From the NCBI RefSeq assembly GCF_020514235.1, contig NZ_VTLB01000001.1, positions 434,001 through 498,000 on the forward strand: a stretch of DNA of 64,000 nt, written 5' to 3'. The notes under the pieces were generated by a model. It searched no databases, was not told where the DNA came from, and worked only from the letters and a program-made list of their open reading frames with translations. Below, one piece after another: positions 51,411 through 61,816 of this stretch; within the stretch, counting starts at the first letter, position 1; every line of letters starts with the position of its first letter. A program made the translations under genes and the position numbers. This DNA comes from Synechococcus sp. MU1617 (GTDB lineage: Bacteria > Cyanobacteriota > Cyanobacteriia > PCC-6307 > Cyanobiaceae).

Positions 51411-51484
51411 CGGGGAGTGGCGCAGTTTGGTAGCGCGCTTGCTTTGGGAGCAAGATGCCGCAGGTTCGAATCCTGTCTCCCCGA
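51411..51484 (+). tRNA. tRNA-Pro (UGG)
   Basis: Cloverleaf with acceptor CGGGGAG / CTCCCCG, anticodon stem CTTGC/GCAAG around loop TTTGGGA (TGG), T-loop TTCGAAT, discriminator A. CCA is not encoded. It is followed by a terminator and marks the left edge of the small-gene region. Confidence 0.97.
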
Positions 51485-51488
51485 TGCG

Positions 51489-51549
51489 ATCAGAAACCAG
51501 TCCCCAGCTGGTATCAGAGCCGTCCCTCAAGGGGCGGTTTTTTATTGCT
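51489..51549 (+). repeat. tRNA-proximal repeat, copy 1
   Basis: Starts ATCAGAAACCAGTCCCC and ends in ATTGCT. It contains two hairpins: ACCAG/CTGGT and the terminator stem. A diverged copy stands at 56335-56396. Confidence 0.75.
51519..51543 (+). terminator. intrinsic terminator after tRNA-Pro
   Basis: Stem CCGTCCC / GGGGCGG with loop TCAA, followed by six T. Ends the tRNA-Pro transcript. No gene is seen from 51545 to about 51798; this stretch is AT-rich and holds a TATCCT box that may be a -10 element for the next gene. Confidence 0.85.
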
Positions 51550-51798
51550 GATGAGCTCTTGCGCGCAAAACGTGCCTATAGCCACCTAACCGCAATCCTT
51601 TTTGCGCACGACTTCTCTCCCCCCCTGACAGTTGGAAGACAGCAGACAAGGTTTATTCAGCAATGGCCGACAAATTTTTTTCTCATTTGAGGCAATTTTC
51701 TAGCTCGCGCAGGCCAATGACGAGTTCAGATTGATACACATAAACGGTATCCTAGCGAACCTGCATCAACAACTATCACGCATCTGGGAGGTTTTTAG

Positions 51799-52023
51799 AT
51801 GTGCCCAGTAGCGTCTTGCGGCTTGAAAAGACATGTGCCGTTCAGGACTTCTCCTCTCTCAGCCCCCTTCCATGTGACTAATCCCAAACCCAAAAGGTGG
51901 AGAACTGCCATCAAAGCGAGAGAGAACCAGCTCCTGACTCTTGCCAAAGAAGCTTTGCAAGAGAAGAAGGAGAGAAAAGTGATTCATTTTCTGGACTATG
52001 TCGATCAGGACATAGCGGCTTAG
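51799..52023 (+). CDS. 74-residue hypothetical protein
   Basis: Start MCPVASCGLKRHVPFRTSPL, then a lysine-rich helical part AIKARENQLLTLAKEALQEK. The ribosome site GGGAGG is well placed before the ATG. Unknown function; first gene of the small-gene region. Confidence 0.5.
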   Translation: MCPVASCGLKRHVPFRTSPLSAPFHVTNPKPKRWRTAIKARENQLLTLAKEALQEKKERKVIHFLDYVDQDIAA

Positions 52024-52123
52024 CCATCCCCAGAAGCCCAGCCCATCTCCTTCATCCACTCGAGTGGAGCGGATCATGGGTCAGACGTGATTGGCTTGAG
52101 TGTTCCTCCCATTGCTCAACCAA

Positions 52124-52159
52124 TAAAAAACCCAGGAGGGAAGAGAAGGGCTCCTGGGT
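52124..52159 (-). terminator. intrinsic terminator, minus strand
   Basis: Nine-base-pair stem ACCCAGGAG / CTCCTGGGT; on the minus strand it is followed by six T. It lies downstream of the minus-strand gene at 52417-52689 and after the first terminator at 52335. Confidence 0.75.
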
Positions 52160-52192
52160 CTGGTGCTGTGTGTTGCCTCGCAGCCCAGCCAG

Positions 52193-52324
52193 TTAAATGG
52201 CATTCATCGGATTTGTTCTGAGGCTTCTCTGAGAGTTTTGGAGTATTTCATCAGCAGCATCCCCAAAATGGTCCGCAAGGATCAGAAGCCTGCGGGAACA
52301 AAATAGCCAGCCCTTTCGGGTGGG
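52193..52324 (-). pseudogene. protein-like frame without a start codon
   Basis: An open frame of 43 residues on the minus strand reads through LLILADHFGDAADEILQNSQ and ends NPMNAI. It lies between two minus-strand terminators. No ATG, GTG or TTG is available before the conserved-looking part. Possibly a remnant of a small gene. Confidence 0.3.
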
Positions 52325-52334
52325 TTAGTTGCAT

Positions 52335-52364
52335 TCAAAAAGCCCCCGCTTGGTAGTCGGAGGC
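52335..52364 (-). terminator. intrinsic terminator, minus strand
   Basis: On the minus strand GCCTCCG / CGGGGGC (one mismatch) with a 9-base loop is followed by five T, 50 bases after the stop of the gene at 52417-52689. Confidence 0.7.
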
Positions 52365-52416
52365 CATATCTGTTCTGAACTACCGAATTGGTTAGAGCAA
52401 AAGAATTATGCGTTCT

Positions 52417-52689
52417 TCACTCTGCCGGAACGCCATGGGTCATGTGTGACAAGGTCAGGAAGTTGGTGATGTCGCCACCGTTGCAGTAATGGACAGCAAC
52501 AGGGCGCTCTAGGAAGCCGGGCTTGCCATCTTTGTCGAGGAACTCAACTCCAGTCAGCTTGACGATCGCTTTCTCAGAGTTCTTGACGCAGTTCACAAAC
52601 TCCTTGGATTGCTTGGCCATAGGTGCCAGCAAAAAAAGAGCTCCAAGTACAGCGGCTCCGATCAGGCCCTTTTCAATTTTGGAATTCAT
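52417..52689 (-). CDS. small exported or membrane-anchored hypothetical
   Basis: 90 residues. N-terminal hydrophobic helix (about 8-25, GLIGAAVLGALFLLAPMA), then a soluble part with two Cys (FVNCVKN and VHYCNGG) and FLDKDGKPGFLERP. Likely faces the periplasm or lumen. It is followed by two tandem terminators. Confidence 0.6.
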   Translation of the reverse strand: MNSKIEKGLIGAAVLGALFLLAPMAKQSKEFVNCVKNSEKAIVKLTGVEFLDKDGKPGFLERPVAVHYCNGGDITNFLTLSHMTHGVPAE

Positions 52690-52907
52690 GCACGTTGCTT
52701 GGTTAGCCCACCGGTTTTAAGAGAGAGAAGCCTTGTTCGCCAGGAACATCTGCCCCCCTGGCCAGCTTCAGGAGTCCAACTCATCTTCTTCTGCCAGATA
52801 AACGCCATAGACGCAGATGGTTACAAGCATCTCAGCGGGCTGGAACTCCTGCCGTGCGCAAGGGCCTCCTGGAATTTGACGTTCAAACCCGTCAGTTTTC
52901 TAATGAT

Positions 52908-53735
52908 CTAGCCATAGGGTCCAAAGCGCGTCGCACAGGCGGCACCACATTGGGCACCCAAGGCGATGGCTTTCGCCAAGGTCCAACGCGCAGCGAGTCC
53001 GGTGACCACCCCCGCCGCAAAGCTGTCACCGCAGCCATAGCTTTCTACCAATGGCCCCGGGAGGGGTGAAGGGTCATAGCGCCCGCCCGGAAGACTGAAA
53101 CCACCTGCGGCACCTTCCGTGCGAATCAGCATGTGGGGAGCTGGGTTCAACTGCTCCGGCTCCACCCGCTCACCGGGATCAAGGCCACTGCCAATCAGGG
53201 CATCGAGGGAAACCTTGGCCTCTTGAAGCACAGGCAAACGCACCCGCGGAGTCGCGGCCAGGACTGCAGCAGCGCGACAGGCTTTCAATAAAGGAACATC
53301 AGCTGCAGTAACGAAGAGACCGTCGCAGTCGCCGAGGGCCTCCCAGGGCAACGCATCGTCCAGTGATGGCGTCAGCCGCTCGCCGATCACGGTGATTGCT
53401 CGGTCCCCCTCCCCATCAACCAAGCTGATGCCACGCCGGGTTGATGCATCTCTCCAGGCGACATGAACCACAAGGCCCAGGTCTTCAAGCCGCTTGACGC
53501 AGGCTTCGCCGACCGAATCGCGGCCTAAGGCCGTAAAGAAATGGACAGGTTGCTGCTGCAACCGTGCCATCTGCACAGCAACGACGGCACCACCACCAGC
53601 AGGTTCCTGCAAGGTTCGCAGGGCGTGGCCAATGGTCCCGGGATGGGGCAACTGATCCACCGCCAGAAATTCCACCCACTCGACATGGCCGACCACAGCC
53701 AAACGCAGGGGCGGCAAGGATGAGACGCAAGACAA
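52908..53735 (-). CDS. PfkB-family sugar kinase
   Basis: 275-residue ribokinase/PfkB-type kinase. Seen: N-terminal VVGHVEWVEFLAVDQLPHPG, LGRDSVGEACVKRLEDLGL, and the catalytic C-terminal signature VESYGCGDSFAAGVVTGLA, with the Asp as general base and the anion-hole glycines. Sugar specificity is unknown. It is the most ordinary gene of this region. Confidence 0.88.
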   Translation of the reverse strand: MSCVSSLPPLRLAVVGHVEWVEFLAVDQLPHPGTIGHALRTLQEPAGGGAVVAVQMARLQQQPVHFFTALGRDSVGEACVKRLEDLGLVVHVAWRDASTRRGISLVDGEGDRAITVIGERLTPSLDDALPWEALGDCDGLFVTAADVPLLKACRAAAVLAATPRVRLPVLQEAKVSLDALIGSGLDPGERVEPEQLNPAPHMLIRTEGAAGGFSLPGGRYDPSPLPGPLVESYGCGDSFAAGVVTGLAARWTLAKAIALGAQCGAACATRFGPYG

Positions 53736-53850
53736 CGGCAGTCCCAGACGACTGGAGTCCCATCCTCACTGGTCATTCGGCCCAACAGAGGTCCCCAAAG
53801 CGGGCTGGGGCTCGACTTAGCGGTGAGGGTTGGTTTTTACCGCTGAATCT

Positions 53851-54090
53851 CTAGGTTTCCTGATCAGCGTGCCTTCTCCACGGAGTCCATGGCCGCTGGG
53901 CTTGAGGAGCGATCTCCGGTTGATGTGCGAGCTGCTGTGCTGTTGCGGCTTTCTGCAGGGCTTGCTGGTCGAGTTCCGCAGAAAGGAACAGTCCGGCGAT
54001 GAACACCATCAGGATGGTGAGTAGTGCTGCGACCAGATACATCGTTGACCGCGCGATGGCTTGTTCCTGCTCCTTGGTCAGGTCGCCCAT
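53851..54090 (-). CDS. 79-residue membrane protein, unknown
   Basis: Start MGDLTKEQEQAIARSTMYLV, one helix (about 16-38, TMYLVAALLTILMVFIAGLF), then a Gln/Ala-rich soluble tail. An alternative ATG lies four codons upstream. It is oriented like the sugar kinase gene 115 bases further left. Confidence 0.55.
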   Translation of the reverse strand: MGDLTKEQEQAIARSTMYLVAALLTILMVFIAGLFLSAELDQQALQKAATAQQLAHQPEIAPQAQRPWTPWRRHADQET

Positions 54091-54320
54091 GGCTTGGCCC
54101 AAATCTGGTCAAGGTGTATCAGTCAGAACTCTTTGCTGCGATTACAGAGCATGTGGTTTTGTGTGCTCACTTCAAGCTTGGTCCAACTCCACAGGGGATT
54201 GGTGGCGAGCACCTTGCTCGGCATGGATTGGAATCTGGCGGCTTCCCCGCTTCGCTAGCCCGGATCTGGTGCGGGCTTTGCACGCCATTCCCACAATCGG
54301 CCGATTCGCCCCAGAAGGCA

Positions 54321-54395
54321 ATGAGCACGACAGCTGATTGCCGGGTGCTCCACGGCTGCCGAGAGTGTGTGCATCGAGATCGGAGGAGCCCATGA
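54321..54395 (+). CDS. 24-residue Cys-containing micro-ORF
   Basis: MSTTADCRVLHGCRECVHRD then RRSP; three Cys and two His. AGAAGG precedes the ATG. Its stop overlaps the next micro-ORF (ATGA). Low-support candidate. Confidence 0.28.
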   Translation: MSTTADCRVLHGCRECVHRDRRSP

Positions 54396-54436
54396 CGGCC
54401 GACACTCCACCTGAGCAAACCGCAGAAGCAGCCTGA
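54392..54436 (+). CDS. 14-residue micro-ORF
   Basis: MTADTPPEQTAEAA. GGAGG stands 5 bases before the ATG, and the start overlaps the preceding stop. Too short to judge by composition. Nothing further is supported in 54437-54700. Confidence 0.22.
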   Translation: MTADTPPEQTAEAA

Positions 54437-54710
54437 CTTTTCTGGCCCCTGCTCCAACTTTTCAACCCAACCGTGAGCGCCTCGTCTGTGACGACACTGA
54501 TGTGCGTCTGATCAGTCGACACTCCTCTGCACCGTCCGTCTAGGTGCCCCGTAGGAGTCCTGCTTCACACCTGGACAAAATGGCCCCAGGGTTGCCACTA
54601 GCCAGACGCTTCGACCTTTCTCTTTCAGTTCACTGTCCTTCGATAAGCACTTCGCTTCACGGATACAGCTTCACTGATTAGGTCGACTGCAATGCATAAA
54701 CGAGCGAGCT

Positions 54711-54744
54711 AGGCCGTCTCTCCATCGGGAGGGGCGGCCTTCCT
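54711..54744 (+). repeat. hairpin repeat B, copy 1
   Basis: Thirteen-base-pair stem AGGCCGTCTCTCC / GGAGGGGCGGCCT with loop ATCG, followed by TTCCTCTTTGCG. It resembles a terminator for plus-strand transcription. A diverged copy is at 55867-55903. The surrounding 54745-55041 has no gene I can support. Confidence 0.65.
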
Positions 54745-55041
54745 CTTTGCGAGCAGATCGGCAGTTCTTTACAACGCCTTGCTGTTCTCGCAGGGGCGTT
54801 CACCTCGCTGGAGATGTCTCATGCAATGCAGCTTCGGCACGTCTCCTCGCGGCAATGATGAAGCGGTCTGTCTTGTCTACGCCTTCAAATCCCACGTCCC
54901 TCAAAAGGACGACGGTCGCAACGTAGGCATACGAAACTGGAGTGCATCGCATGCAAGTGAGCCCTCACTTCAAACGAGGACAAGCGCTAACCACGGACTC
55001 CAATCACCCAACCCAATCTTGGCCGTCGCCAACGATTTCTT

Positions 55042-55266
55042 TCACGCCGTTGCCTGTTCAGCCGTGTCATTGAGGACATCTTGCTGAAGCTGCTGAACTG
55101 CGCAGAGGGCTTCATGCGCGGGCCATCCATGAACATCCATCAACTCTTTAACCAGAGCATCAGGGGCCCGAGTGATCGAGGTGCGAATGGCATTGACAAC
55201 CTTGTTGTCCCTCGCGAGTGCAGACAGCCGCAGAGCCCGGAGTCGCTGAGTGTTCGGCTGTTTCAT
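55042..55266 (-). CDS. 74-residue hypothetical protein
   Basis: MKQPNTQRLRALRLSALARD, then a helical body NAIRTSITRAPDALVKELMD and a tail with CAVQQLQQDVLNDTA. Composition looks coding. An in-frame start 14 codons upstream is possible. Unknown function. Confidence 0.5.
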   Translation of the reverse strand: MKQPNTQRLRALRLSALARDNKVVNAIRTSITRAPDALVKELMDVHGWPAHEALCAVQQLQQDVLNDTAEQATA

Positions 55267-55343
55267 GACAGCACTCTGGACTAACGCTGGTTTTGCTCCA
55301 GTTGCCAACTGCTGATACGGACTGGGCTAACTCGTTAAGTGCC

Positions 55344-55622
55344 CTATCGCAGTGGACCGGCGCATCTCCTCCAACCCATTGACTTGAGTGCATTCCATTT
55401 CTCCAGCGCCTCCTGTCGTGTCATCAGTTGACTCCCCTGAGGGATCGGGTCGTCAGGTGGTCGCCAATGGAAGCTGCGCATGACGATCGACTCGCCTTGA
55501 GAGCCATCCTGATGAGCGGTGAATTGGTAGTAAAGCTGCTGTGACTCATTGGCAAGCCAGGCACCAACAGACTTGTAGGAGAGTTCTTCAGTGATGAGTT
55601 CACTCCATAGAAGGGGCGCCTG
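55344..55622 (-). pseudogene. DUF1651-like frame without a start codon
   Basis: The frame from about 55607 reads WSELITEELSYKSVGAWLAN, then FTAHQDGSQGESIVMRSFHW, and ends in TRQEALEKWNALKSMGWRRC. The late R-x-EA-x-x-W-x-x-L-x-x-x-GWRRC pattern matches DUF1651 proteins of picocyanobacteria. The frame opens after a TGA and offers no ATG/GTG/TTG before the domain; the first ATG (MRSFHW) would remove half of it. Either an unusual start, a frameshift, or decay. Confidence 0.5.
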
Positions 55623-55800
55623 ATCGGTCGGTCAGACGGCTTTTTTCGTAGGTGAGCTGACGGAGCTTTTCGATGTGCTGCTCATGCTCTCCGCTGCTCC
55701 AATGGTGGGGGAAGGCGACTCGGGCTTGAAGTTCCGAGATCTCGTTGTTGAGTTCTCTCGCTGGGTCCTCGGACCAAAGTTCCTCTCCACAGTGGAGCAT
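55600..55800 (-). CDS. 66-residue helical hypothetical protein
   Basis: MLHCGEELWSEDPARELNNE, EISELQARVAF and EHEQHIEKLRQLTYEKSRLT; helical, probably coiled coil. The ribosome site (GGCGGGG) lies inside a CCGCC/GGCGG hairpin, which could limit access. Its end overlaps the opening of the DUF1651-like frame. Confidence 0.45.
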   Translation of the reverse strand: MLHCGEELWSEDPARELNNEISELQARVAFPHHWSSGEHEQHIEKLRQLTYEKSRLTDRSGAPSME

Positions 55801-55866
55801 CGCCCCGCCTTACTGGCGGTGGAGAAGTGAATCTCCTCAATTACTACTGATGCAACCTCTCGGGGC

Positions 55867-55903
55867 AGGTCGTCTCCCCATCAGGACAGGCGACCCTTCT
55901 CTT
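55867..55903 (+). repeat. hairpin repeat B, copy 2
   Basis: Stem GGTCGTCT / AGGCGACC followed by CTTCTCTTTCGCG. The arrangement and flanks match 54711-54744 with substitutions. Confidence 0.6.
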
Positions 55904-55980
55904 TCGCGGAGATTTAGGCATTAAGCCTTAGCCATTGGCCAGAGAAAAACCTGCAGACTGATCCGACCCACACAAGCTGC

Positions 55981-56073
55981 ATGAAAGGACTCCACACGAA
56001 CGTTGCCTACTTCAGCGGCACCGTCGCGATTGCAGTCCTAGTCATGACTTTCGTTGTCAAAGCAACGGCCTAA
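55981..56073 (+). CDS. 30-residue membrane peptide
   Basis: MKGLHTNVAYFSGTVAIAVL then VMTFVVKATA. A single helix from about residue 11 to 27. Ribosome site weak. Unknown function. Confidence 0.45.
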   Translation: MKGLHTNVAYFSGTVAIAVLVMTFVVKATA

Positions 56074-56166
56074 GAAAGCGTTACTTCAGCCAGGCGCGAT
56101 CGTTAGGTATGACTCAGTCAGGCCACGCCCTGCTTCCTATTGATTGAGTTAGCAGGGATAAATGAC

Positions 56167-56244
56167 ATGAGAGCCACCAAACTCACCACAGCTCCACAAG
56201 GCGATGAGTACTACAGAGTCTGCGACCAGGAAGCACCTCGTTGA
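56167..56244 (+). CDS. 25-residue micro-ORF
   Basis: MRATKLTTAPQGDEYYRVCD then QEAPR. AGGGAT lies just upstream. Weak support; could be the stump of a longer gene. Nothing else is seen up to the repeat at 56335. Confidence 0.22.
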   Translation: MRATKLTTAPQGDEYYRVCDQEAPR

Positions 56245-56334
56245 GGACACCTCCGACCTGAGCGCAACTAGGACACGGCTCTATCCACCGGAATGGAATT
56301 AGAGCCCTGACTCTCAAGGCTTGCTCCTCGACCA

Positions 56335-56396
56335 ATCAGAAACCGGTCCCTCAGCTGGTCTTTAAGCCGTCCCACAAAGGGCGGTTTTTTGTTGCT
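56335..56396 (+). repeat. tRNA-proximal repeat, copy 2, with terminator
   Basis: Starts ATCAGAAACCGGTCCC and ends GTTGCT; about four-fifths of bases agree with 51489-51549. It contains a terminator stem (GCCGTCCC / GGGCGGT, one bulge) followed by T6. No tRNA precedes this copy. Confidence 0.72.
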
Positions 56397-56472
56397 CTGG
56401 CCAGCAGTGCGTGCTGCGCATATTGATCAGTGCAAGCTGATCAATAACGAGTCACCTGGAGCAACGCGTGAC

Positions 56473-56583
56473 TCAGATGATCTCTTTACGGCCAGCCTTG
56501 ATCTTGGCTTGGGCTGAAACGAGACCAAAAATCAGCAGAATCAGCAGGCCCGCGTTCACGCCAACGAAAAACATTGTGTCCAT
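56473..56583 (-). CDS. 36-residue membrane peptide
   Basis: MDTMFFVGVNAGLLILLIFG then LVSAQAKIKAGRKEII. One helix (5-24) and a basic cytosolic tail. Unknown function. Confidence 0.5.
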   Translation of the reverse strand: MDTMFFVGVNAGLLILLIFGLVSAQAKIKAGRKEII

Positions 56584-56708
56584 GACTTCAAGATGGCTTG
56601 CCTCGTAATAAGGAAAGAGAGCAAAACAGCCCATCGGTCAAAAGACTCAATTCAGGACCAAAAGAAGATGAAGCCTTGCGCTGATCTTGAGAGATCTGTC
56701 GAGACCAC

Positions 56709-57005
56709 CTACGACTGCAAACCGCCATCGCCATCACGATCAGCCCAGCCCTTCGCTTGCAGCTGACGCAGACGGTCCAGGAGCTCAAGATCACCAACAA
56801 TCTGACGACGACACCCGTCCTCCCCCATGTAGGTCAAACGCCCATCGGCATCGATGACCAGGGCGGTCATGGGGGTGACTGGAAACAAATCGTCGATGGC
56901 GAAGTGCTCCTCATTCAGATCAACCCAGTCTGCGTCCTCGAAGCGCTCCAGCCCAAAATCATGACCAAACCAAACAGGGGGGCCAGCCGCTAGGGCAGCT
57001 TTCCT
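56709..57005 (-). pseudogene. protein-like frame of up to 98 residues, start unclear
   Basis: A clearly protein-like minus-strand frame: GHDFGLERFEDADWVDLNEE, HFAIDDLFPVTPMTALVIDA, DGRLTYMGEDGCRRQIVGDL and a tail WADRDGDGG with calcium-loop-like acidity. The first usable starts are TTG at 56888 and ATG at 56870, which would drop the N-terminal half. A run of six G near 56978 is a possible indel site. May be a live gene with an odd start, or a recent frameshift. Confidence 0.5.
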
Positions 57006-57007
57006 CT

Positions 57008-57205
57008 ATGAAGGATGCGATGGACTGGATCCTTTCCCGACGCGTGACTGATCAACAAGGCAAAGACAAGACCTATTGGATTGATGAGATCGCGTTCCTG
57101 GAGGCACGGTTGAACGGCAGTCAGGGTGACATCGACAACGAAGACCGAGCGGCTTGCGAAGAAGCCCTGAAGGCAGCAAAAGCGAACTTGGCAGACTCTC
57201 ACTGA
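57008..57205 (+). CDS. 65-residue hypothetical protein
   Basis: MKDAMDWILSRRVTDQQGKD then WIDEIAFLEARLNGSQGDID and a helical end. Charged, soluble. The start is back to back with the minus-strand frame above. Unknown function. Confidence 0.55.
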   Translation: MKDAMDWILSRRVTDQQGKDKTYWIDEIAFLEARLNGSQGDIDNEDRAACEEALKAAKANLADSH

Positions 57206-57329
57206 AGACGGGGCTGACCGAAGCTCGAGCCAGATCTATGGTTGGGATGTGAGAGGGAGACCTCTTCGGGCGTGGTTGCTTGATTTGGTGGGTGGTGTCA
57301 CGACCTACTGCCTCTCTCACACCTCTTCG

Positions 57330-57545
57330 TCAAGGCTGATCGAGGCCTCTCTCCTTGGCATAACTCTTGTAATGATTGGGAAATTCATCGGCCAGCTGGG
57401 CAAGCAGATCGCTAGCAGAGCCCATTTGCTCGTTAACTTCATCAAAAACCGAGGCAAAACAGCTCTCACACCTGATTTCAAGACAAAGATCTTCCCAGGT
57501 CGTTTCTTTTTGATTGAAACTGGCCACAAGCTCTTTAAAGGTCAT
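57330..57545 (-). CDS. 71-residue hypothetical protein
   Basis: MTFKELVASFNQKETTWEDL, then CLEIRCESCFASVFDEVNEQ and helical ASDLLAQLADEFPNHYKSYA. Two close Cys (ESC and LCLE). Composition looks coding. An upstream ATG three codons earlier is also possible. Unknown function. Confidence 0.55.
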   Translation of the reverse strand: MTFKELVASFNQKETTWEDLCLEIRCESCFASVFDEVNEQMGSASDLLAQLADEFPNHYKSYAKERGLDQP

Positions 57546-57668
57546 CAGCAACAAACTGTTTTTCTTAGAGTGAGCCTAAACCCAATAGCGTTACATAATT
57601 CTGAACCGAATAAAATCAAGGTTGTCATGACCTGATGTGCCAAGGCTGTGATGGCGCAAAATTGAAGG

Positions 57669-57794
57669 ATGAAACGACTGCTGCAACTCCTTTTGAAATG
57701 GGCTGGCAAACGGGAGAAACCCCCATTGAACACCCCTGAAGAGTTGGAGTGCTTTAAAACAGATGCGATCGAAAACCGCGGCAAGCACTACTAA
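57669..57794 (+). CDS. 41-residue amphipathic protein
   Basis: MKRLLQLLLKWAGKREKPPL then NTPEELECFKTDAIENRGKH. Basic amphipathic start, acidic end. An AAGGATG context leaves the ribosome site weak. Its stop overlaps the next start (TAATG). Confidence 0.5.
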   Translation: MKRLLQLLLKWAGKREKPPLNTPEELECFKTDAIENRGKHY

Positions 57795-57973
57795 TGCAAG
57801 GGGCAACTGAACTGGCACTACTCGCCCTCGCATTTGTCGGGCTCCAGATCTGGTGGCTCAGCAAGGTTTTTTTGAATCGACCTCGGCAGCCAAGACCGCT
57901 TGGCAAGCCCATGAGGGCCAATTCACTCCAGACCAAGAGAACCGCACTGCAAAAGATCTTTGATCAATCCTGA
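57794..57973 (+). CDS. 59-residue single-helix membrane protein
   Basis: MQGATELALLALAFVGLQIW, then a Trp/Ser turn and a basic Arg/Pro-rich tail (FLNRPRQPRPLGKP). One helix, tail probably in the cytosol. It is coupled to the preceding gene by a one-base overlap. Confidence 0.55.
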   Translation: MQGATELALLALAFVGLQIWWLSKVFLNRPRQPRPLGKPMRANSLQTKRTALQKIFDQS

Positions 57974-58062
57974 TCATCGCTAGCACGAGGAGATCACTAG
58001 GGACAAACACCGATGCCTGATGCGATCTGAACAATCAGCGTGGTGCATCAGCAACGAAAGCC

Positions 58063-58209
58063 ATGGCACTGATTTGTTGTGCGAACTGCGGTCACATGCA
58101 CTCAAGCTTGAGAAACGGTTGCCCCCAGTGCATCAAGCAGGGGCGACTAGGGTCCCCTCAGGCGTTATCTGATCGGATCAAGCAAACCCCGAGCAACACC
58201 AAGGAGTGA
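58063..58209 (+). CDS. 48-residue zinc-ribbon microprotein
   Basis: MALICCANCGHMHSSLRNGC then PQCIKQ. Two knuckles, CANC and CPQC, spaced as in a rubredoxin-like zinc ribbon, with a helical tail. Unknown partner. Confidence 0.6.
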   Translation: MALICCANCGHMHSSLRNGCPQCIKQGRLGSPQALSDRIKQTPSNTKE

Positions 58210-58214
58210 CCACC

Positions 58215-58385
58215 ATGGCTTTTGATGCTCCCCCTGCACAAGGACGTCAATGCAGATGCTGCGGTTACATCAAACCTCTAAATTTCTTTGGATTGGATCA
58301 ACAGGAGTGCCGGAACTGTGAAGTACAACGACGACGCCAACAGGCCATGAAAGAAAACGCCAATGATTCAGTCGAGGAGTCTTGA
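58215..58385 (+). CDS. 56-residue zinc-ribbon microprotein
   Basis: Two knuckles, CRCCGY (17 region) and CRNCEVQ, around the hydrophobic KPLNFFGL, then a basic/acidic helix. It begins 5 bases after the preceding zinc-ribbon gene, so they probably share a transcript. Confidence 0.62.
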   Translation: MAFDAPPAQGRQCRCCGYIKPLNFFGLDQQECRNCEVQRRRQQAMKENANDSVEES

Positions 58386-58471
58386 ATCAAACCCAGCCTC
58401 AATGAGCATATGCACCAATGTTCAATTGACATCCATGGGCTATCACATGGGAAGAGTTGAAAAGAGGCGTC

Positions 58472-58660
58472 ATGGGCAAGGTTCTTTCAGCAGCAAAATG
58501 GTCGTTCGATCTACTTGGCCAGCGCATCACTGCTCTTCGTCTTAAAAGGAGCTTTCCAGAATCAAGGATCTACAGCGACTGGGCTTACGACGAATCACAG
58601 ATGAAAGAGGCCAATCTTGACAAGCGTGAGCAGAAGTCTCATCTGGAATACGATTGCTGA
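58472..58660 (+). CDS. 62-residue hypothetical protein
   Basis: MGKVLSAAKWSFDLLGQRIT, then RLKRSFPESRIYSDWAYDES and a charged end. AGAGG stands 5 bases before this ATG; an in-frame ATG five codons upstream exists. Unknown function. Confidence 0.5.
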   Translation: MGKVLSAAKWSFDLLGQRITALRLKRSFPESRIYSDWAYDESQMKEANLDKREQKSHLEYDC

Positions 58661-58831
58661 AGCCACAAACCAATCAAGCAAGGGCAAAGATAGCGACTTA
58701 GCAGTCGTCAAACCAACACATCAAATGGCGAACAAACCGCTTTGGGATGGAGGTTGGCAATCTCAGCCAAGTCCCCTAGAACGCTGTTCAGCATCGTTGT
58801 TGTTATGGCCTTGATTCCCCGCTGGCAGTAC

Positions 58832-58981
58832 ATGACTGACAGCAGCAAAACCATGGTGAAACGATCTGCAATCACACTTGTGGTTGTTCTGATTGGATTA
58901 ACACTGCTGCGCGCAATCTTTCCATGGATCCTGCTCGGCCTGGCCTTCTATGGTGCCTGGTGTTTGTTGAACCGGAAATAA
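58832..58981 (+). CDS. 49-residue membrane protein
   Basis: MTDSSKTMVKRSAITLVVVL then IGLTLLRAIFPWILLGLAFY: one or two helices. The frame stays open 30 codons upstream with several possible starts, including ATG at 58805. Unknown function. Confidence 0.5.
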   Translation: MTDSSKTMVKRSAITLVVVLIGLTLLRAIFPWILLGLAFYGAWCLLNRK

Positions 58982-58984
58982 CCG

Positions 58985-59131
58985 ATGAGCGAAGACTCAA
59001 CCCAAGCCAGACGAACGCTCTATCTCTGGGCCCTAGGCCTCAACGTTGTCGCTTGGGGCGGATACCTTTATCTGACCAAGGTGATGGGAATCGATTTTGA
59101 ATCGATTCAGCAAGCGAGAATGGCCGGTTAA
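58985..59131 (+). CDS. 48-residue membrane protein
   Basis: MSEDSTQARRTLYLWALGLN then VVAWGGYLYLTKVMG; one helix (12-31). It starts 3 bases after the preceding gene, so co-translation is likely. An inverted repeat CCTGGTCCGACCAGG follows at about 59160; the rest of 59132-59274 shows nothing. Confidence 0.55.
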   Translation: MSEDSTQARRTLYLWALGLNVVAWGGYLYLTKVMGIDFESIQQARMAG

Positions 59132-59274: not shown

Positions 59275-60270
59275 GTGAATCACCCCCTAACGCATGGCTT
59301 TGAGGGTCACCCGTCCTCAGAAAAGAGCCGATCAGAGAGCTTGATGAGGCAGGAGACGGTGCAGCGCATCTGCGGCCAGGTCTGTGTGTGGTTTGGAGTC
59401 GTTGTTCTCGGCGTCTCTCTTTATAAATTCATCAGCGCTTTTTGGGTGGATGCTTCCCCTTGGCCTGAGTTGCAACTGGGTACCGCTGGCTTGATTTTGG
59501 TTGCAGGAGGACGAATTTTTCGAAACTCAGCATTCATAACAACACTGCTGGCAGAAAAGAGTCCTTCAGCACGAGCTCAACGAGCCTTTCTGATGCTTGC
59601 CCTCGCCTCATTCATCATGGGCTGCGTTGTTTTACTGAAACTTTCTGTTCAGGACATTTATCGCTACAAGCGTCTGCTTGGCGAAGGAGGAATTCTGGAG
59701 TATTTGCAAGCCCTAATTCTTTTCACATCCGCCTGGATATCGTGGCTCATCTCCAAAGATCTACGCAAGCGCTTGTCCATGCGCCTGCCTTCAGTGGTTT
59801 ACGCGATCATTTCTTTGACCATGCTGTTTGTTGGCCTCGAGGAGATTGCCTGGGGGCAAATCCTATTCGGCTGGAAAACACCTGAAAACATCGCTGCGGT
59901 AAACGCCCAAAACCAGACAACGCTCCATAACCTTGAGTTCTTCCAGAGCCACCTCGACCTCAATCTTTTCTTGGTCTCAATCGTACTTTTGGTGCTCGTC
60001 CTGTGGCGACCTTCAATCCGATGGATACGCACAAACCCTCTTAATGGAAATCGGATTGCCAACAGCAACTTCTTCATACCGAGATACTTCTGGCCTCTCT
60101 TCTTCTGCGCCGCATTTCTGTCTTATTTTGTGGCGACAGAATCGGGAACAGAAGTGGTGATTAATATCGATCAGGAGTGGGCAGAGTTTCTTCTATACCT
60201 GGCCGCTGGTCTGAATTTATTGAGAACCTACATCCTTCTTAGTGACTCACAACCGAACCCAACCCACTGA
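59275..60270 (+). CDS. 331-residue polytopic membrane protein
   Basis: About eight hydrophobic helices. Between helices lies a conserved-looking stretch FVGLEEIAWGQILFGWKTPE followed by NAQNQTTLHNLEFFQSH; I know this Glu-Glu...WGQ...N-x-Q...LHN pattern from other uncharacterised bacterial membrane proteins. The polar signature within a helix bundle suggests an enzyme or channel. GTG start; an internal ATG at about residue 24 is possible. The region 60271-60456 to its right has no supported gene. Confidence 0.78.
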   Translation: MNHPLTHGFEGHPSSEKSRSESLMRQETVQRICGQVCVWFGVVVLGVSLYKFISAFWVDASPWPELQLGTAGLILVAGGRIFRNSAFITTLLAEKSPSARAQRAFLMLALASFIMGCVVLLKLSVQDIYRYKRLLGEGGILEYLQALILFTSAWISWLISKDLRKRLSMRLPSVVYAIISLTMLFVGLEEIAWGQILFGWKTPENIAAVNAQNQTTLHNLEFFQSHLDLNLFLVSIVLLVLVLWRPSIRWIRTNPLNGNRIANSNFFIPRYFWPLFFCAAFLSYFVATESGTEVVINIDQEWAEFLLYLAAGLNLLRTYILLSDSQPNPTH

Positions 60271-60589: not shown

Positions 60590-60751
60590 TTAAGACTCTG
60601 GTGAACATGCGTAAAGAAGCCAGTTCAGGCAAGCAGCACTGCTACAGCCAATAGAAGCCTGCTTCTGAGGAGACACTAAATCTGGAGCAAGAGGTCAAAA
60701 AACCTCGGGATTGCGATGCTTCATGATGAAGACATCCTTAAGGGAGAAGCC

Positions 60752-60946
60752 ATGATTTCTGGCCCATCCTGCCCATTGCGCTTGGGAGTTCTCGACAGCC
60801 CCGACTATTGGACTGATGACGCACTGATGTCTGCAGTGCGTCCATTGAATCCAGAGGAACTTCACCACTTGGCCATCGGATCCCTTCAACGAAGGGCTCG
60901 AGAACGCGGTGTTCGCCAAACCTCTTTACTCAACCCCGTTGGCTGA
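60752..60946 (+). CDS. 64-residue hypothetical protein
   Basis: MISGPSCPLRLGVLDSPDYW, then DDALMSAVRPLNPEELHHLA and a basic helix (QRRARERGVRQ). GGGAGAA lies well placed before the ATG. Its end overlaps the convergent gene at 60930 by 17 bases. Confidence 0.55.
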   Translation: MISGPSCPLRLGVLDSPDYWTDDALMSAVRPLNPEELHHLAIGSLQRRARERGVRQTSLLNPVG

Positions 60947-61160
60947 ACCCAGCCAAGAGTTGATGGAACTGCGCAAACAGCCTGTCGAACCAGGTGCCTG
61001 AACGTCGACCAGCTGGTCGCTGCAATACCGAGGCATGCAGCATCGGCCCGTTGGTGCCGTATCCATCAAAGGCAATCAAGGCGTCTTGGGCTCCCTGAAG
61101 CTCCTGGTCGATTCGACGGGAGGAGAAGCGCTCGTGAGCTCGGTTTCGTGACGTTGACAT
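60930..61160 (-). CDS. 76-residue hypothetical protein
   Basis: MSTSRNRAHERFSSRRIDQE, a middle part with LQGAQDALIAFDGYGTNGPM, then a basic linker and a Phe/Leu-rich end WFDRLFAQFHQLLAGF. The ATG choice is uncertain because the frame is open 32 codons further. Divergent from the hli gene. Confidence 0.45.
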   Translation of the reverse strand: MSTSRNRAHERFSSRRIDQELQGAQDALIAFDGYGTNGPMLHASVLQRPAGRRSGTWFDRLFAQFHQLLAGFSQRG

Positions 61161-61255
61161 GACTGGGGCGAATGCACCTACCTCCGGTCTGCCACCGGAC
61201 CGAGCTGCTTGGCCGTAGTTGGTGACGCTTCTTAGGGAGCCGAACCTCGACTCCA

Positions 61256-61273
61256 TTTACAAACCGTTACGCA
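61256..61273 (+). promoter_or_regulatory. HLR1-like site upstream of hli
   Basis: TTTACAAACCGTTACGCA fits the direct-repeat HLR1 consensus bound by RpaB (two TTACA halves, second one reading TTACG) with the right 10-base phase. A TAACAT -10-like box follows at 61279. It stands 33 bases before the hli start. Confidence 0.6.
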
Positions 61274-61305
61274 AGGCTTAACATTTCGAAAGATTTCAAC
61301 GAAAG

Positions 61306-61503
61306 ATGGCTACTTCAACTCCCAATGACGACTGGTTCCAAAGCGCTGCAGCAGCTCAAATCCGCAGTGAGCGTTTCGCGAAAGCAGAGCTCCTCAATGG
61401 CCGCACCGCAATGATCGGCTTTGTGGTGGGCCTGCTGACGGAAGCCCTGACAGGGCACGGGATCGTCAGTCAGATCACCTTTGGCGTGTTCGGCTGCAAC
61501 TGA
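61306..61503 (+). CDS. high-light-inducible protein (Hli/SCP)
   Basis: Single-helix chlorophyll-binding stress protein of 65 residues. The signature is AKAELLNGRTAMIGFVVGLL, with the Glu-x-x-Asn-Gly-Arg chlorophyll ligand pattern, then TEALTGHGI. Hli proteins protect photosystem assembly in high light. The HLR1-like site upstream suggests RpaB control. Confidence 0.93.
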   Translation: MATSTPNDDWFQSAAAAQIRSERFAKAELLNGRTAMIGFVVGLLTEALTGHGIVSQITFGVFGCN

Positions 61504-61657
61504 ACCGGTCAACTGCTGAGGGGATGCTCTGGGACTGCAGTTGCAAGCCTGCACTCACCCATCCCTTGACCGAGGCTCTTACGAACATCTTTTTCGGCCA
61601 AAATGCTTGATGTTCCAGGCGTTTTGCGATAAAAGGTTATGAATTGGTTATGAAGCG

Positions 61658-61816
61658 ATGAAGACAAGCACCGCCCATTCACGTCTCGAGTCCCTCCAGC
61701 TCGCAGCTGAGGAGTGCCAGACCCGCGAAGAAGCGCAAAAGATTCTGAGGAAGGCAGACAAGGCCCACGCCAAGCTGGAGTCCTCAGCAGCTCCCTACCA
61801 CCGTCTCAAGAACTGA
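61658..61816 (+). CDS. 52-residue helical hypothetical protein
   Basis: MKTSTAHSRLESLQLAAEEC, QTREEAQKILRKADKAHAKL and a short tail; an amphipathic helical pair. No strong ribosome site is seen. Unknown function. Confidence 0.5.
   Translation: MKTSTAHSRLESLQLAAEECQTREEAQKILRKADKAHAKLESSAAPYHRLKN

Follow-up and report, generated by a model that had tools for sequence, protein, structure and literature searches.

Seven unnamed small-protein genes in a marine Synechococcus genome are most likely co-resident units rather than a single operon

Among described cyanobacterial micro-proteins, NsiR6, HliR1 and Norf1 are short, conserved and driven by their own promoters; some bear a membrane helix, and NsiR6 carries two cysteine pairs (PMC5126843). 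A second point of reference is PSHCP of Prochlorococcus and marine Synechococcus, a small, picocyanobacteria-limited protein of undetermined function that is universal in its clade and 100% identical (PMC4215834). The locus considered here lies in a 64,000-nucleotide stretch (the window) of a 2.3 Mb marine Synechococcus genome, where seven plus-strand open reading frames of 41-62 codons each, g1 to g7, occupy positions 57669-59131. Their products resemble NsiR6, HliR1 and Norf1 in being short and conserved, with own promoters that are candidates in the present case; NsiR6 (NsiR6/NblD), at 66 aa, is longer than the cysteine-pair proteins g3 (48 aa) and g4 (56 aa), beside which it is set by description only. 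With PSHCP they share small size, restriction to picocyanobacteria and undetermined function, but unlike PSHCP they are patchy and variable.

A sequence-only reading of this DNA had proposed an operon of seven genes of 41-62 residues, including two zinc ribbons and three membrane peptides, as parts of one membrane complex or regulator. The open reading frames fall exactly where that reading had placed them. Same-genus relatives exist for all seven, and orthologues are colinear in 12 other genomes of the genus. Median dN/dS values from g1 to g7 are 0.14, 0.07, 0.40, 0.26, 0.10, 0.09 and 0.18, as opposed to 0.71-3.29 in the two wrong frames of the identical alignments; g1-g7 are real genes under protein-level selection, the signal being short in g3 and weaker in g4. 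Pfam and NCBIfam return no family match for any of the seven, in agreement with the earlier statement that none belongs to a known family, and Pfam, NCBIfam and PDB yield nothing above threshold for the members searched. An origin from phage was considered and rejected: there is no significant match in phages for g3, g4 or g6, nor in viral contigs for g6. The seven families are unnamed and their arrangement is ordinary; the length of the run is not special, as conserved small genes also lie at 56473-57554 and 60695-61816.

Two membrane pairs, two cysteine-pair proteins and g5

The first two genes form a compact pair. The 41 aa g1 (57669-57794) has a basic N-terminal helix and a conserved PPLHTPEELECFKTDAIENRGKHY tail, and the 59 aa g2 (57794-57973) has one transmembrane helix (residues ~5-27) and, behind it, a basic tail rich in Arg and Pro. 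The g1 stop overlaps the g2 start (TAATG), an arrangement that may couple translation of the two; a one-base overlap is kept in 12 of the 13 genomes, counting that of the window. Wherever g1 is found it adjoins g2, and the pair recurs at other loci (in G007, G014, G032, G129, G154, G206 and G218, and behind a copy of g6 in G089 and G175); two genera carry such overlapping pairs away from the run. Judging from gene order and hydrophobicity, g1 and g2 would constitute a membrane module of two subunits, in which g2, its basic tail in the cytoplasm, is the anchor and g1 the peripheral partner.

A second pair closes the run. The 58 aa g6 (58805-58981) combines a MALIPRWxxMTD head with a long hydrophobic helix, and the 48 aa g7 (58985-59131) combines a single membrane helix with a conserved TKVMGxDxESxxQAR tail. 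In the window g7 begins 3 nt after g6, and the spacing is 3-4 nt in all 13 genomes. The g6 family is present in 113 of 201 Cyanobiaceae genomes, in up to three copies, and is almost absent from the other cyanobacteria sampled. An AlphaFold2 model of g6 consists of a single long helix (residues 6-55, mean pLDDT 84), with which one membrane crossing and a re-entrant loop are both compatible. NCBIfam NF033233, a twin transmembrane helix small protein, is matched weakly by 2 of 18 g6-family members (best E 0.0012); the g6 of the window has no match, and its model shows one long helix, not two. A g6-like gene is paired with g7 in G007 and G032, and g7 stands away from g6 in G020, G089, G154 and G175. 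Gene order and hydrophobicity again suggest that g6 and g7 may act as a membrane module, the second in the run. The expectation of three membrane peptides holds, as g2, g6 and g7 each have one hydrophobic stretch of membrane-spanning character.

Between these pairs lie two genes with paired CxxC motifs. In g3 (58063-58209, 48 aa) a predicted zinc-binding N-terminus of ~25 residues (CxxC-x10-CxxC) is followed by a drifting C-terminus: dN/dS is 0.24 over the first 25 codons, which hold both cysteine pairs, against 0.65 for the rest, which changes length. The 56 aa g4 (58215-58385) carries a predicted CxxC-x15-CxxC zinc finger. In both proteins the two pairs are kept across relatives, and in g4 they are retained down to other genera; the exceptions are a frameshifted g4 that has lost one Cys (G033) and a broken g3 in a single-cell genome (L064). 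A structural model of g4, of low confidence (mean pLDDT 67), places a knuckle before a helix that begins at the second CxxC pair, and the fold looks more treble-clef-like than ribbon-like; a Foldseek search with this model gave no significant structural match. Of the two zinc ribbons proposed, the paired cysteines stand, with spacings of 10 and 15. We infer that g3 and g4 may be small zinc-binding adaptors.

The gap between g3 and g4 ranges from -11 to 499 nt in the 12 colinear genomes and the window, and g4 occurs elsewhere without the rest of the run (L077-L080) or without g5 (G007, G026, G032). It is frameshifted in at least two genomes. Near its start, a run of C (58224-58237) differs in length by one base in 2 of 13 genomes, L058 (MU1642) and L059 (G033), and shifts the frame; the difference could be slippage, decay or assembly error.

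Comparison with phage families brought one resemblance, in which g4 matches the paired-CxxC region of the endonuclease VII zinc motif (phrog_1035; E 3.6e-4; 5 of 12 members). The match is to the metal site, residues 9-48, and g4, with only 56 aa, is devoid of a nuclease domain; nothing beyond the zinc site speaks for membership in that family. Separately, in genera that we infer, partly from kinship, to be Prochlorococcus-like, the g4 domain forms the N-terminus of a ~320-350 aa protein with an undescribed C-terminal domain (L120, L123, L127 and L163-L168), and that C-terminal domain is a separate gene in G069, G081 and G162. As a route to a g4 partner the fusion was set aside, the fused domain not being detected in the window's genome.

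The remaining member, g5 (58472-58660, 62 aa), has an N-terminal amphipathic-type segment and a C-terminal YDESQM...LEYDC segment. It lies 86-128 nt from g4 where g4 is intact and 140-251 nt from g6. Elsewhere g4 and g5 occur together without the rest of the run (L071 in G020 and L069 in G023), and g5 occurs without any other member nearby at L070 and L072-L075 (genomes G010, G012, G015, G016 and G022). A 58-60 aa protein encoded at L111-L116 (ISIASAQPIGTVI...ALDYDESQM...EYDC) shares its final 25-27 residues with g5 and is unrelated over the rest of its length. This recurrence at the end of two dissimilar small proteins suggests that the YDESQM...EYDC segment may be a binding surface of g5, itself probably a peripheral protein. 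A longer g5 was considered and rejected on the ground that the distance from an upstream box to the start varies by one base among genomes (27 versus 25-26 nt).

Conserved elements upstream of g3, g5 and g6

Three of the genes are preceded by conserved plus-strand elements that we regard, on the strength of their conservation alone, as candidate promoters. A conserved non-coding leader (CTAGGGACAAACACCGATG ... AATCAGCGTGGTGCATCAG; 57997-58062) precedes g3 as a candidate promoter or 5' UTR element; its start, TAGGGACAAACACCGATG, is kept among relatives, and in G017, where g1-g2 are missing upstream, part of it immediately follows a terminator hairpin. An upstream start for g3 was rejected, as the sequence following the in-frame TGA offers no start codon and lacks a coding pattern. 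The region upstream of g5 (58401-58444), which contains the box AATGAGCATATGCACCAATGTT and places GCTATC 27 nt before the start, is a candidate promoter of its own. The pattern [AG][CT]TAT[CT] occurs 25-27 nt before g5 in 20 of 20 loci; at seven of them g5 is separated from g1-g3, g6 and g7, and at five of the seven g4 is not adjacent either. The background of GCTAT[CT] in the window is 1.7e-4 per nt. The distance of the box shifts by one or two bases, and the box is therefore non-coding. Before g6-g7, a candidate sigma70-type promoter, TTGGCA-N17-TAGAAC (58754-58782), ends 22 nt ahead of the g6 start; TTGGC[AG]-N17/18-TAGAAC recurs at this distance in 13 of 13 genomes, with a related arrangement in G007, and the match upstream of g6 in G032 fell short of the pattern used.

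A generic consensus scan of the window found no canonical promoter. Folding of the g3, g5 and g6 leaders is not significant (z 0.01, -0.61 and -1.78), and Rfam over 55-62 kb gives nothing beyond two chance hits below threshold, both to animal RNA families. A motif common to the g3 and g6 leaders (CTAGGGAC versus GTCCCCTAG) was rejected; each has a single copy in the window, and degenerate matches are no more frequent than chance predicts.

One operon or several separately controlled units

The surroundings of the run are distinctive in composition. GC content is 0.50-0.53 over 56-62 kb, compared with 0.58-0.67 over the first 50 kb, and a tRNA-Pro gene lies upstream of the run (51411-51484). 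With atypical GC near a tRNA and variable gene content, the region fits the description of a picocyanobacterial genomic island; islands that hold gained genes are a well-documented feature of these organisms (PMC7522525). Several neighbours were noted in passing. The ~5 kb behind the tRNA (51485-56470) are lineage-specific, the corresponding interval being ~750 bp in L059 and ~140 bp in L065. A conserved 74 aa gene on the minus strand (57330-57554), divergent from g1, is present in 12 of 12 relatives and in L081, and matches no family above threshold. Downstream of g7, 59275-60270 encodes a 331 aa predicted membrane protein without a family, 43-86% identical among relatives and not detected in two. 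Farther on, 61306-61503 holds a high-light-inducible-type (Hli) gene, with PF00504 above cut-off.

The blocks g1-g2, g3, g4-g5 and g6-g7 are separable in evolution, and g4 and g5 each also occur alone. Together with the conserved elements, which in the case of g3 and g5 persist where the gene stands without most other members, this arrangement suggests that the run most likely comprises co-resident units under separate control, at least three to four in number, rather than one operon for one membrane complex. We consider it probable that these four gene blocks of marine Synechococcus share a lineage-specific neighbourhood close to tRNA-Pro, where GC is low and small genes are numerous. As for content, two two-gene membrane modules (g1-g2 and g6-g7), two small zinc-finger proteins (g3 and g4) and one peripheral protein (g5) are most likely.

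Separate promoters could still serve one regulon for one stress response, such as to high light, so that clustering would be functional without a shared transcript. The order g6-g1-g2 in G089 and G175, the placement of g1-g2 1 kb from g7 in G129 and the nearby Hli gene speak for such a regulon; with no evident common motif among the elements upstream of g3, g5 and g6, and with most genomes holding only some of the members, we judge it unlikely. Less likely again, to a degree that makes it hard to sustain, is the reading of all seven genes as one operon for parts of one membrane complex or regulator. The genes share a strand, and three of the six junctions are tight (gaps from g1 to g7 are, in order, -1, 89, 5, 86, 144 and 3 nt), so that the reported spacing or overlap of 1-5 bases holds for these three and fails for the other three, at 86-144 nt. 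No plus-strand terminator was found between the blocks in the window, and read-through along all seven genes is therefore possible. The colinearity in 12 genomes also favours an operon; these genomes are close relatives, however, and their agreement is not independent. Moreover, colinearity reaches into the flanking genes b53m, b59m, a65, g0m, mem331 and c74m, which lie at 56473, 56709, 57008, 57330, 59275 and 60695 in the window and are likewise kept in most of the 12; the kept order of the run thus reflects recent common ancestry, not a bond among the seven. Against a single operon stand also the elements before g3, g5 and g6, where a lone promoter would be expected, and the two genomes in which g4 is frameshifted while g5-g7 are intact.

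An operon would be expected to keep its genes together and in order in independent genomes; in many other Cyanobiaceae genomes, members stand apart. Separate and independent occurrence is what the sequence-only reading had itself named as evidence against an operon, and it is largely what we find, with linkage in pairs confined to g1-g2 and g6-g7 and with g4-g5 as neighbours. Neither the single operon it proposed nor a single complex finds support in these data. That the small frames are spurious or decaying remnants, as the drift of g3 beyond codon 25 and the g4 C-run differences in two genomes might hint, is so improbable as to need little discussion; for five of the seven (g1, g2, g5, g6 and g7), dN/dS of 0.07-0.18 and starts and stops fixed in nearly all genomes already contradict it.

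If the co-resident blocks have a common theme, acclimation of the photosynthetic membrane would be the likeliest, a suggestion drawn only from the genes' confinement to picocyanobacteria and from the Hli gene nearby. A bolder and doubtful extension, which we rate as a long shot, is that the last 25-27 residues of the g5 type act in picocyanobacteria as a docking peptide recognised by one shared partner and that, along with both membrane pairs and both zinc proteins, they belong to an undescribed modular, separately regulated small-protein acclimation system. The locus corrects a tempting reading, in that short genes side by side in a small-gene-rich region do not amount to an operon, and it adds seven unnamed but selected small-protein families to one of the most abundant groups of phototrophs. 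Should partners be found for the g5 tail or for the g1-g2 and g6-g7 pairs, they would open the way to accessory membrane subunits in picocyanobacteria.
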